Source of the DNA: Synergistaceae bacterium
GTDB lineage: Bacteria; Synergistota; Synergistia; Synergistales; Synergistaceae
NCBI GenBank assembly: GCA_030523725.1
Contig: JAUNHV010000002.1
Location: forward strand, 124,001-188,000
DNA: 64,000 nucleotides
Direction of reading: 5' to 3'
Below the pieces are notes generated by a model. That model ran no database searches and was not told the DNA's origin. It saw only the letters and a program-made list of their open reading frames with translations. This document shows, piece after piece, positions 22,341-27,213 of this stretch. The translations under genes were made by a program, and so were the position numbers. Each line of letters begins with the position of its first letter. The stretch's first letter is position 1.

Positions 22341-23066
22341 TTATCTCATTGCTTCTAAGATGATGTCTCTAGCTTTTATTGCCTCTTCCTTTGTCGTATT
22401 AGTTGTGTCACGCAGAGGATAACCTATTCCAAGTTTTTCATATTTTGAAATCGCCATATTATGATATGACAAAATTTCCAATGCATTAATATTTTTTAAG
22501 TTTTTTAGAAACTGTCCTAATCTCTCAAGCTCTTCTCTTTTGTCTGTAATACCAGGAACAATGACGTGTCTAATCCAAACCGGGATGTTTTTTTCTGAAA
22601 GATATCTTGCAAAATCCAAGATATTTTTGTTTTCATGCCCTGTCAGTTTCTTATGCTCTAGGTTATCAATATGTTTTATGTCCAAAAGCACTAAATTTGT
22701 AACTGAGAGCAATTTATCAATAGGAGCAAGATTGTTTCTGTCAAAATAGACCCCAGATGTATCAAGTGCCGTGTGAATATTTCTAGCATTGGCTTTTGCA
22801 AAAAGCTCTGTAACAAATTCTATTTGTGCCATCGGTTCGCCACCTGTTACAGTAATACCGCCATGTGAAAAAAATTCTTTCAAGCTGTCAAAGCGCGCTA
22901 AAATTTCCTCACTTGTCATTGGTGAATTTTGCTCAAAAGTCCAAGTGTCTGGGTTATGGCAGTAAAGGCACCTCATGGGGCACCCTTGCAAAAAAACTAC
23001 GAAACGTATTCCTGGTCCATCAACCGTTCCACACGTTTCGATTGAATGAATATTCCCTTTTTTCAT
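22341..23066 (-). CDS. pflA: Pyruvate formate-lyase activating enzyme
   Basis: Radical SAM enzyme that abstracts a hydrogen from the glycyl residue of pyruvate formate-lyase. The 241 residues carry CPMRCLYC (Cys29, Cys33, Cys36) for the [4Fe-4S] cluster, followed by HNPDTW, the PFL-activase hallmark, and the SAM-binding TVTGGEP near residue 72. ATG 23066 is used; a TTG four codons upstream is also open. No ribosome-binding site is seen directly before it, and a strong hairpin ends only a few bases upstream, so expression is likely lower than that of the enzyme it activates. Its substrate here would be the free-standing glycyl-radical domain encoded just upstream. Confidence 0.94.
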   Translation of the reverse strand: MKKGNIHSIETCGTVDGPGIRFVVFLQGCPMRCLYCHNPDTWTFEQNSPMTSEEILARFDSLKEFFSHGGITVTGGEPMAQIEFVTELFAKANARNIHTALDTSGVYFDRNNLAPIDKLLSVTNLVLLDIKHIDNLEHKKLTGHENKNILDFARYLSEKNIPVWIRHVIVPGITDKREELERLGQFLKNLKNINALEILSYHNMAISKYEKLGIGYPLRDTTNTTKEEAIKARDIILEAMR

Positions 23067-23077
23067 CTTATTGCACA

Positions 23078-23121
23078 AAAAGCGAGGACATGGTAAACAT
23101 GGTAAACTTGTCCTCGCTTCT
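23078..23121 (-). terminator. Hairpin between the glycyl-radical domain gene and pflA
   Basis: An 11- to 12-bp stem (AAGCGAGGACA / TTGTCCTCGCTT) with a 17-base loop that itself contains the direct repeat TGGTAAACA TGGTAAAC. Read leftward the stem is followed by TTTTT. It looks like a partial terminator or mRNA-stabilising hairpin that lowers pflA output. Confidence 0.7.
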
Positions 23122-23131
23122 TAATTTCTCC

Positions 23132-23368
23132 TTATAATGAGCTATGGAACGTCCTAGAAATAACGTCGTCTTGCTGCTCTTTTGTTAATTTATTAAAATT
23201 AACAGCGTATCCTGATACACGAATAGTCAGAGTAGGGTATTTCTCTGGATGTGCTTGCGCATCAAGCAAAGTTTCTTTGTTCAAGACATTAACATTAAGG
23301 TGATAACCACCTTTTTGCATATAGCCATCTATCAAATTAACCAAATTTTCTTCAGCCTTTGTAGACAT
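23132..23368 (-). CDS. grcA: Stand-alone glycyl-radical domain of pyruvate formate-lyase (GrcA-like)
   Basis: A 78-residue protein equal to the last part of a normal pyruvate formate-lyase. It contains [15 protein letters not shown], a [17 protein letters not shown] segment with the radical Gly at residue 53, and the terminal SRTFHSSL. In E. coli PFL this stretch is covalently part of the enzyme, while the stress protein GrcA/YfiD is a spare copy. Here the neighbouring PFL gene lacks it altogether, so this protein probably supplies the radical in trans. ATG 23368 has an AGGAGG ribosome-binding site. The gap to the PFL stop is 34 bp; stop codon and new ribosome-binding site argue against a sequencing frameshift. 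Confidence 0.88.
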
Positions 23369-23402
23369 ATTAAGGTTCCTCCTAAAATTTAAAAATAATT
23401 TT

Positions 23403-25487
23403 TTAGTCAACTGTACATTCAGTACATCCGGTATTCATTGTTAAAACGGCACCATCAACTAAGAGTTCATCCTTTCCGAGTGCCTCAGGAATAATTGAGA
23501 AGGTGTTAGAGATTCCATCCTGCGAATCTTCAAAAGGAATTTTTGCTACAGAGGCAAGAGAGGCTACAGCACCACTTTTATCTCTTCCGTGCATTGGATT
23601 GGCTCCTGGTGCGAAGGGTACGCCAATTTTTCTTCCATCCGGAGTGCTTCCGGTCTTTTTACCGTATATAACATTTGATGTAATTGTCAAAATTGACAGC
23701 GTTGGAATTGAGTTGCGGTAGGTTCTGTGTGATCTAATTTTGTCCATAAATCTATGGACTATTTCAGTTGCTAATTCATCAACTCTATCATCATTGTTTC
23801 CGTATTTAGGATAATCACCTTCAATTTCAAAATCAGTAACTATGCCATCTTCATCGCGTATTGTTTTTACCTTTGCGTATTTTATAGCAGAAAGGGAATC
23901 TGCTACAACAGAAAGCCCAGCTACACCAGTAGCAAAATAACGTTTTACGTCTCTGTCATGAAGTGCCATCTGTGCTCTTTCGTAGCAATATTTGTCATGC
24001 ATATAGTGAATACAGTTCAAGGTATTAACATAAAGCCACGCCAACCATTCCATCATGGCGTCATATTTTTCCATGACTTCATCAAAGTCTAAATATTCAT
24101 TCAGTATCGGGCGATTTTTTGGACCAACCTGTACTTTTAGTCTCTCGTCAACTCCGCCGTTGATTGCATATAGTAAGCACTTTGCAAGATTTGCTCTTGC
24201 ACCAAAAAATTGCATTTCCTTACCAACAACCATAGAAGAAACACAGCAAGCAATTGCATAATCATCGCCATGGGCGACACGCAAGATATCATCATTTTCG
24301 TATTGTATGGAAGACGTTTTTATGGAAATTTTGGCGGCAAACTTTTTAAAATTCTCTGGCAAATCTTTTGACCAAAGAACTGTTAAGTTTGGTTCTGGAG
24401 CTGGATCTAAATTGATAAGTGTCTGTAGATATCGGAAAGAATTTTTCGTAACCAATGGTCTTGCGTCTGCTGCCATACCGCCAATTGACTCAGTTACCCA
24501 TGTCGGGTCACCCGAGAATAATGAATTATAATCCGGTGTTCTTGCAAACTTCACAAGCCGAAGCTTCATAATGAAGTGATCTATCATCTCCTGTGCTTCG
24601 CTTTCAGTAATAACACCATTTTTTAAGTCTCGTTCTATGTAAATATCCAAAAATGTTGATGTGCGACCAAGACTCATAGCAGCGCCATTTTGTTCTTTAA
24701 CTGCTGCTAAATAGCCAAAATAAAGCCATTGCACAGCCTCTCTTGCGTTCATTGCAGGACGTGAAATGTCAAAACCATAAATTGTGCCCAATTCTTTCAT
24801 CTCATTTAGTGCCACAATCTGTTCTGCAAGCTCCTCTTTTAGGCGGATCTTATCATCGACCATAGTTCCGCTAATAGATTCATGTTGTTTTTTCTTGTCT
24901 TCTATGAGTCTATCAATTCCGTAAAGTGCAATACGCCTGTAGTCACCAATTATGCGCCCTCTGCCATAAGCATCTGGCAAACCGGTAAGAATTGCAGCGT
25001 GTCGTGCAAGTTTCATCTCAGGAGTATAGACATCAAACACACCTTGGTTGTGTGTCTTTCTGTATGTTCTAAAGATGTGAGAAATTTCTTTATCAACCTC
25101 ATAGCCATAAGACTTACAGGAGGTTTCTGCCATTCTAATTCCACCGAAAGGCTGTAAAGCTCTTTTTAGTGGCTTGTCTGTCTGTAAACCAACAATGACT
25201 TCATTTTCCTTGTCTATGTAACCAGCCTTATGAGAAGTTATGGTAGAAACAATTTTCGTGTCCATATCAAGAACACCGCCGTTTCTTGTTTCTTCTTGCA
25301 TAAGAGCCTTGCATTTGCCCCAAAGTTTTTTTGTCCTCTCTGTAGCAGGGGCAAGAAAGGTATCGTCACCATGATATGGGGTAAAATTTTTTATTATAAA
25401 ATTTCTGACGTTGATTTCTTTCTTCCAAGCACCATCGGCAAACCCCTGCCAAGCGGTTTCTTTTATTTCTTCAAGATTTTTTTCCAT
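23403..25487 (-). CDS. pflB: Pyruvate formate-lyase core, lacking the C-terminal glycyl-radical domain
   Basis: Cleaves pyruvate with CoA to acetyl-CoA and formate without oxygen. The 694 residues cover the ten-stranded barrel of PFL, with the two active-site cysteines Cys414-Cys415 in ACCVS. They follow known PFLs up to the [10 protein letters not shown] segment, where E. coli PFL continues into the glycyl-radical loop. Here the chain instead ends with about 20 different residues, including TGCTECTVD. The usual length is about 750-760, so about 70 residues are missing and are found in the next gene. It starts 27 bp after the hydrogenase gene with no terminator between them, so the two are co-transcribed. 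Confidence 0.92.
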
Positions 25488-25514: not shown

Positions 25515-26954
25515 CTATTCTTTTGAAATATCGTTGCTTTTATTAAGTAAATCAGTAATTAGTTTAGTCGATGTCCTGGAATCTGCAATTGTTCCATGGC
25601 CACCAATACAGCCACCTTCACAGCACATGACTTCAACAAAATTTCCGTTGTCACACTTGCCCTCTCTTACATATTTTTTTAACTGTCTTATGGTTTCTTT
25701 ATTTAGTCCATTAATAACAGTGGGGCAGGTATCAGAGTTGGTGCAGAATTTAACTGCTTCAGCCACACCACCAGAAAGAGGGAATTTTCTGCCTTGCTTA
25801 GAAGGCTGAACTCCACCATTATCCTCTTCACAATTTAAAATTTCTATATGAGATGCAATAAACATGGCACCTAGCGTCGCGATGTTGATAACGTAGTCAA
25901 CATTGGGATTTTCTTTTGCTTCTTGTTTTTTTGCAACACAGGGGCTTATGAATACCACCTTTGAATTTGGATGTTCTTTTTTTGCAATTTCTGCCGTATA
26001 AAATAGCGGAGTTTTTGTTTCAGATTTATAGGGCGCAAGCTCTGGTAAATGTTTTTTTATAAATTCATTATATCCAGCACAACACGAAGTAGTCATAAAA
26101 GCTTGACCACTTGCCATCTTTTCTTGAAATTCTCTAGCTTCATTTTTTATGGTAATATCCGCACCCTGCGCAACTTCATAAACATGAGTGAAGCCTAGTT
26201 TTTTCAAAGCGGTTTTAAACTGACCAACGCTTCCTGGCAACTGACCGACAGCTGCTGGTGCAAAGAGGACAGATACTTCTTCTTTATTTTTTAATAATTT
26301 CAAAACATCTATTAATTGATTTTTTTGTAGCACTGCTCCGAAAGGACAGCTTGAAATACATCTACCGCAAAGTATGCACTTGTCAAAATCAATTTTTGTT
26401 GTTCCATCCGCATTTCTTTCAATAGCATCAACTGGACAGCTATCTTCGCATGGCACAGCTACCTTTACTATTGCATTGTATGGGCAAACTGGTATACACA
26501 TTTTACAAGCTTTACACTTGCTTGAATCAATTACAGATCTGCCGTTTATAATTTCTATTGCGCCAAATTTGCAAGCTGTATGGCACGGTCTAGCCACACA
26601 TCCTTGACATAAATCAGTAACATGTATTCTTTGATGCACACAAGCTTTACAAGCGGCGCCGAGCACTGTTAGTGGATTTTCTTCTGGGCGTTCTCGTTCT
26701 AATGCGTTTTTGGCATACCTATACAATGAGACTGTTTCATCATCGTCTTCTATAGCAAATCCAAGAGCAGCAATGATTCTATCTCGTAGTATTGCACGCT
26801 CTTTGTATATACAGCAGCGATAAGGAACCTTTGTGCCTTTAGGCCTCATATCGTAGGGGATTAGTCTTGTATTTTTTTCAAAATCATCGGAAAGAAATGC
26901 TTCAACTAACCTTACTAATATTTCCTTTTTTAAGTGTTGAACATCATTAGTCAT
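25515..26954 (-). CDS. Monomeric [FeFe]-hydrogenase, group B-like
   Basis: Likely produces or consumes H2 with ferredoxin as partner. The 479 residues have an N-terminal ferredoxin-rich region (Cys clusters at about 102-128, 147-157, 169-173 and 193-203) and a C-terminal H-cluster domain. H-cluster motifs: L1 TSCCAGY (Cys291, Cys292), L2 SPCVAKK (Cys339), L3 EVMCCEGGCIGG (Cys445, Cys449). L1 departs from the usual TSCCPxW, with Ala for Pro and Tyr for Trp, which together with the DLCQGCVARPC segment suggests the poorly studied group B. The maturases HydE, HydF and HydG are not in the window. The gene overlaps the preceding [2Fe-2S] gene by 8 bp and leads into pflB. Confidence 0.85.
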   Translation of the reverse strand: MTNDVQHLKKEILVRLVEAFLSDDFEKNTRLIPYDMRPKGTKVPYRCCIYKERAILRDRIIAALGFAIEDDDETVSLYRYAKNALERERPEENPLTVLGAACKACVHQRIHVTDLCQGCVARPCHTACKFGAIEIINGRSVIDSSKCKACKMCIPVCPYNAIVKVAVPCEDSCPVDAIERNADGTTKIDFDKCILCGRCISSCPFGAVLQKNQLIDVLKLLKNKEEVSVLFAPAAVGQLPGSVGQFKTALKKLGFTHVYEVAQGADITIKNEAREFQEKMASGQAFMTTSCCAGYNEFIKKHLPELAPYKSETKTPLFYTAEIAKKEHPNSKVVFISPCVAKKQEAKENPNVDYVINIATLGAMFIASHIEILNCEEDNGGVQPSKQGRKFPLSGGVAEAVKFCTNSDTCPTVINGLNKETIRQLKKYVREGKCDNGNFVEVMCCEGGCIGGHGTIADSRTSTKLITDLLNKSNDISKE

Positions 26955-27213
26955 TTTTCTTTAATTGTCTTTCAATTTCTTCTATAACTTTTTCTAGTGT
27001 GGCTTTTTTAACAACGATATCATTTACCTTCACGTATGGGGCTTGTGAATAGTCAAAACTTGAGAGCTCTGACTCTAAGCAATCATTCCCAGCTGTAACA
27101 GTCACATTATCTCCAAATTTTTGTGCAATAGTTGCTTTCAAATTTTGTAAATCGGGAGACCTCATAACAAAACAAGTTGTGCACAGGCATACTCTTACTT
27201 CTATTTTTTTCAT
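26947..27213 (-). CDS. Thioredoxin-like [2Fe-2S] ferredoxin
   Basis: Small electron carrier of the NuoE/2Fe-2S thioredoxin-like family. The 88 residues show Cys9, Cys11 and Cys14 near the start and Cys45 further on, a set of four suited to a [2Fe-2S] cluster, with a thioredoxin-like pattern ending in QAPYVKVNDIVV. Usual family spacing is C-x4-C rather than the C-x-C-x2-C seen here, so which three of the four N-terminal positions bind is uncertain. As the first gene of the operon and overlapping the hydrogenase, it is probably that enzyme's dedicated electron partner. Confidence 0.72.
   Translation of the reverse strand: MKKIEVRVCLCTTCFVMRSPDLQNLKATIAQKFGDNVTVTAGNDCLESELSSFDYSQAPYVKVNDIVVKKATLEKVIEEIERQLKKND

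Follow-up and report, generated by a model that had tools for sequence, protein, structure and literature searches.

In the Synergistaceae bacterium analyzed here, pyruvate formate-lyase (PFL) is encoded as two genes, one for a 694-aa core that ends where the enzyme normally enters its glycyl-radical loop and one for a 78-aa protein that consists of this radical domain, and their sequences make it very likely that the pair specifies a working two-component enzyme. PFL is a central enzyme of fermentation and its radical is oxygen-sensitive. The two genes lie within a 64,000-nt stretch of contig JAUNHV010000002.1, referred to below as the window, and the coordinates of the locus are given in Table 1. 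An earlier note based on the letters of the window had proposed such a split, with no built-in radical domain to fall back on and an essential small subunit. The split is confirmed and the obligatory role is supported, and the arrangement turned out not to be peculiar to this genome but to be a variant of apparently single origin that is common to several phyla.

Table 1. Features of the split PFL locus, in window coordinates
Feature	Position	Strand	Basis
PFL activase PflA, radical SAM	22341..23078	-	TIGR02493 302.5 bits, cut-off 231.75
Hairpin followed by U run, between small gene and pflA	23075..23124	-	-22.1 kcal/mol, z = -4.8
Stand-alone glycyl-radical subunit, 78 aa, radical residue G53	23132..23368	-	E. 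coli PFL alignment; NCBIfam GrcA3; match of the model to 6owr
Gap between core and small gene, 34 nt	23369..23402	-	Sequence; AGGAGG 9 nt before ATG
Core tail codons after LGK (22 residues plus stop), not in fused PFLs	23403..23465, approximate	-	Tail comparison
PFL core, 694 aa	23403..25487	-	TIGR01255 1135.9 bits; alignment to E. coli PFL
[FeFe] hydrogenase, group B1	25515..26954	-	TIGR04105 496.2 bits, cut-off 450

A PFL core and a separate radical domain

The core on its own scores above the cut-off of 994.2 bits of TIGR01255, the formate C-acetyltransferase equivalog, and covers model positions 1-663 of 744. Its alignment to E. coli PFL stops at residue ~678, and the small protein takes up the alignment at residue 683. 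From there it continues to 758, has a deletion of 5 residues and places G53 opposite the radical residue G734. In line with this, the Pfam Gly_radical domain is cut across the two proteins, the core holding positions 1-50 and the small protein positions 51-106; RVSGYAV, the radical glycine motif, is absent from the core chain and sits on the 78-aa protein. The core retains the active-site cysteines C414-C415 (E. coli C418-C419), a pair that is invariant in 26 split cores. Thus, the break point, the cysteine pair and the radical glycine named in the earlier note were all found as described.

The core ends with a TAA stop codon, and the small gene runs in a different reading frame from an ATG at 23368 to a stop at 23132, preceded by the ribosome-binding site in the gap. 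A 92-aa ORF with a TTG start differs from the small gene only by an additional upstream start located before the AGGAGG. A sequencing or assembly error, i.e., a frameshift in an ordinary PFL, has nothing in its favor beyond the split itself and deserves next to no credence here in view of the stop codon, the 34-nt gap, the ribosome-binding site, the novel core tail and the recurrence of this break in numerous assemblies that are independent of each other; for the split clade as a whole it is refuted.

The cognate radical-SAM activase, PflA, is encoded by the next gene after the small gene; its true start is probably an ATG near 23066 and not the TTG at 23078. The hairpin between the two genes, which is missing from a terminator scan with a loop limit of 8, is a possible attenuator that would hold the activase under the level of the subunit. 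On the other side, the [FeFe] hydrogenase gene shares the strand of the core, is located 27 nt upstream of it and is a probable operon partner. Besides the hydrogenase, the region 25515-27213 on the minus strand contains an 88-aa Cys-containing ORF directly upstream of the core, which has no Pfam or NCBIfam match.

Searches with both PFL families detected no second PFL or glycyl-radical domain elsewhere in the genome, which is 100% complete by estimate, and none of the split genomes carries a fused PFL. As there is no intact PFL here and split genomes never have a fused enzyme, we expect the small protein to be obligatory for the enzyme, in agreement with the earlier note, and not a spare. Its similarity to GrcA/YfiD and the NCBIfam name rad_fix_GrcA3 would fit a GrcA-type spare for damaged PFL, with the core being degraded or functioning separately. 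We consider this reading very improbable, however, since split genomes lack an intact PFL to repair, strong purifying selection acts on the core, whose Cys pair is intact, the GrcA and GrcA2 scores are well below the cut-offs, and the small protein has no counterpart of the 60-residue YfiD N-terminus.

Distribution and origin of the split

Comparison of the break point with relatives showed the same break in dozens of independent genomes. Among the best 80 loci matched by the small protein, most are split in this way, the small gene beginning ~0 to 264 nt past the core end, and the remainder are solo small genes. In 25 genomes drawn from these loci, all matches are stand-alone small genes, present once or twice per genome, and none is fused. 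The window's core shares 73-80% identity with split cores of other genomes, and its small protein shares 78-85% with its relatives. At the sequence level, Q38 of the small protein is diagnostic of the split: it is found in 56/56 split proteins, whereas 35/37 fused enzymes carry Met.

The split is most frequent in the Gastranaerophilales, where 97 of 241 genomes match, 84 with a split and 13 with a fused PFL but none with both (p = 0.003 for this exclusion assuming independent genomes, which they are not). In an alphaproteobacterial order, 7/153 genomes are split and the other six matches are fused. The Bacillota, the phylum of a Lachnospiraceae-labelled genome among the matches, have a stand-alone GrcA3 in 3/399 genomes, each time adjoining a truncated core. 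Within the window's own phylum the split occurs in 1/188 genomes, namely the one studied here. One matching MAG (L081/G207) is labelled Brachyspira; an order search centred on the L081 genome drew the same Gastranaerophilales genomes, so that we rejected this assignment, and the MAG appears to be a mislabelled public record of a member of the Gastranaerophilales.

In a tree of 95 cores, a branch with an SH-aLRT support of 95 sets all fused enzymes apart, corresponding to one state change if the chains of the PDB entries 38la and 38lb are counted with the split cores. The small-domain tree, which has few columns, agrees with one change at a weaker support of 87; both trees are quick and have some long branches. 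The best reading of these trees is that the split PFL arose once, and its occurrence indicates that it has moved among bacteria of at least four groups. The window's core shares 82% identity with a core from the Gastranaerophilales vs about 60-61% with the fused PFLs of its own family, whereas LepA from the same contig shows 73-82% identity to its own family vs 58-60% to Gastranaerophilales. As PFL core and LepA thus show opposite patterns of identity, the split PFL of this genome was probably gained by horizontal transfer. A foreign base composition of the PFL operon was not found (GC 0.35-0.40, window 0.39). For selection, dN/dS was taken from closer pairs, synonymous sites being saturated against the window's sequence, and was about 0.01-0.07 in both genes, indicating strong purifying selection; one small-gene pair has a dN of 0.02 vs a dS of 1.17.

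Proposed subunit interplay and the possible use of the split

According to the model suggested by these data, the core would contribute the barrel and substrate pocket along with the catalytic Cys pair, and the 78-aa protein would add the elements that a normal PFL has in-chain, namely strand, radical loop and C-terminal helix. By analogy with PFL and YfiD biochemistry, the small protein would dock into the core, the product of the neighbouring pflA gene would take hydrogen from G53, and the radical would move from G53 to C415/C414, followed by the usual pyruvate cleavage. A loose radical domain can pass its radical to a truncated PFL, as is known for YfiD, and an E. coli core cut at residue 695 together with YfiD lacking its N-terminus shows normal activity once activated (PMC8683613). 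The binding of YfiD to this E. coli tPFL is too weak to measure and activation is 32-fold less good (PMC8683613), suggesting that an efficient natural split needs extra binding features. The natural split is also earlier (678) than the E. coli cut (695).

Two candidates for the missing binding determinants are the N-terminal stretch added to the small protein and the novel tail of the core. In the small protein, a segment that starts with NLxxLx and continues for 18 residues is kept whole, and only the short N-terminus is an addition; the model of this protein matches the YfiD NMR structure 6owr and is usable from residue 29 on. The AlphaFold model of the core has a mean pLDDT of 54, too weak for placing the tail or a docking site. 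The tail of split cores measures ~22 residues (15-58), with GKDEVFMGDLxIxLDCGCCE as the typical form. That of the window, which includes TGCTECTVD, had been singled out as a new Cys-containing element, and it proved to be a clade feature that is conserved in kind: 61 of 63 split cores have at least one tail Cys and 60 at least two. The cysteines are missing in two of the three Bacillota cores (L077, L212) and hence are dispensable for the split as such. Separately, 20/74 small proteins have a C-terminal Cys, often CGC (L008, L017, L024, L058, L078, L082), which resembles the DCGCC tail of the core. A general pairing of the two was rejected, as tail cysteines occur in 61/63 cores but C-terminal cysteines in 20/74 small proteins, with none in that of the window.

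Upon exposure to oxygen, O2 would cut only the 78-aa subunit and the core would stay reusable. That the damaged subunit is replaced cheaply on its own, as the earlier note had suggested, is plausible, given that some genomes carry solo small genes with a single core, where checked, and with Crp/Fnr or D-lactate dehydrogenase neighbours. A second, solo small gene was found in 23/84 split Gastranaerophilales genomes, and those two-small-gene genomes that were checked have one core gene each (in pieces where contigs end). Among 20 solo loci, a Crp/Fnr-like neighbour is present in nine, a D-2-hydroxyacid (lactate) dehydrogenase neighbour in nine, and both in two, the families being confirmed by Pfam on examples; loci adjoining such genes include L054, L053, L073, L061 and L062. 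The neighbours are the best hint of on-demand synthesis of the radical subunit, but control of fermentation would explain them just as well as repair after oxygen damage.

In a fairly credible rival view of the two-component enzyme, the split would serve regulation, with the supply of the radical subunit setting activity, or be neutral, and would have nothing to do with cheap replacement after oxygen damage. The Crp/Fnr or D-lactate dehydrogenase genes beside solo copies fit fermentation control equally, and an extra copy is present in the above minority of split Gastranaerophilales genomes, with no second small gene in the genome of the window; the long conservation and the cross-phylum transfer speak mildly against pure neutrality. 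A more elaborate and rather doubtful proposal is that the split PFL works as a consumable cartridge, in which O2 destroys only the 78-aa subunit and fresh copies then reload the core; in some species these would come from a second gene under separate regulation beside a Crp/Fnr-family regulator. The conserved Cys tail of the core would act as a redox-dependent gate or tether for the cartridge.

Comparison with known systems

Searches for split PFL, GrcA3, Gastranaerophilales PFL and naturally split glycyl radical enzymes yielded no paper on this system and no experiment on any member of the split clade in the literature covered, which left bioRxiv and subscription journals mostly outside. The small part of the split PFL is of a kind already catalogued by NCBIfam as a repair cofactor (GrcA3), and others may already claim the discovery of the system. 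PDB entries 38la (687 aa) and 38lb (739 aa), both termed 'Formate acetyltransferase', lose their similarity to PFL at the same point and fall within the split clade, with 75-79% identity to the nearest split cores and no radical domain detected in their chains; neither is among the entries of a structure library ending in April 2026. Judged by sequence, they look like solved natural split cores on which work has already begun, although they could be engineered truncations.

Loose radical domains are also encoded by phages: relatives were found in 1542 phage records, and the GrcA-like proteins of T4-type phages share 60-80% identity. In contrast to the small gene of the window, these genes are phage-borne, and in what we inspected none was seen to accompany a truncated core. 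In a few fecal or Enterococcus 'phage' records without annotation, the match extends over nearly the whole small protein at 75-78%.

GrcA/YfiD (TIGR04365; 6owr) resembles the small protein in being a loose radical domain of similar sequence and fold. In contrast to GrcA/YfiD, the window's protein lacks the ~60-residue N-terminus, scores 99.3 bits vs a cut-off of 170 with a match from model position 65 on, and is encoded next to a PFL without its own radical domain and with no full-length PFL coexisting. The GrcA3 family (NF038360, rad_fix_GrcA3) agrees in length, a stand-alone ~78 aa, and is most likely the family of the window's protein. The full-length match of the latter scores 152.6 bits, under the cut-off of 158, which relatives from the split clade pass (e.g., 165.5 for G206). 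The name GrcA3 implies repair, yet split genomes have no intact PFL, and genes named as GrcA3 'repair cofactor' as well as truncated-looking PFLs of gut MAGs are probably misread.

Canonical PflB (TIGR01255; E. coli 1h16/2pfl) shares with the system described here the fold family, the catalytic Cys pair, the RVSGY radical loop and a PflA-type activase, and differs in that the radical domain of the window is on a separate polypeptide and its core has the new Cys tail. What E. coli employs as an emergency repair, YfiD on a cut PFL, would here be the normal and obligatory design of a clade that is spread over phyla of largely gut-derived bacteria, and could offer a natural system for the docking of a radical domain in trans, access of the activase, and recovery from air with the oxygen-labile part kept separate.
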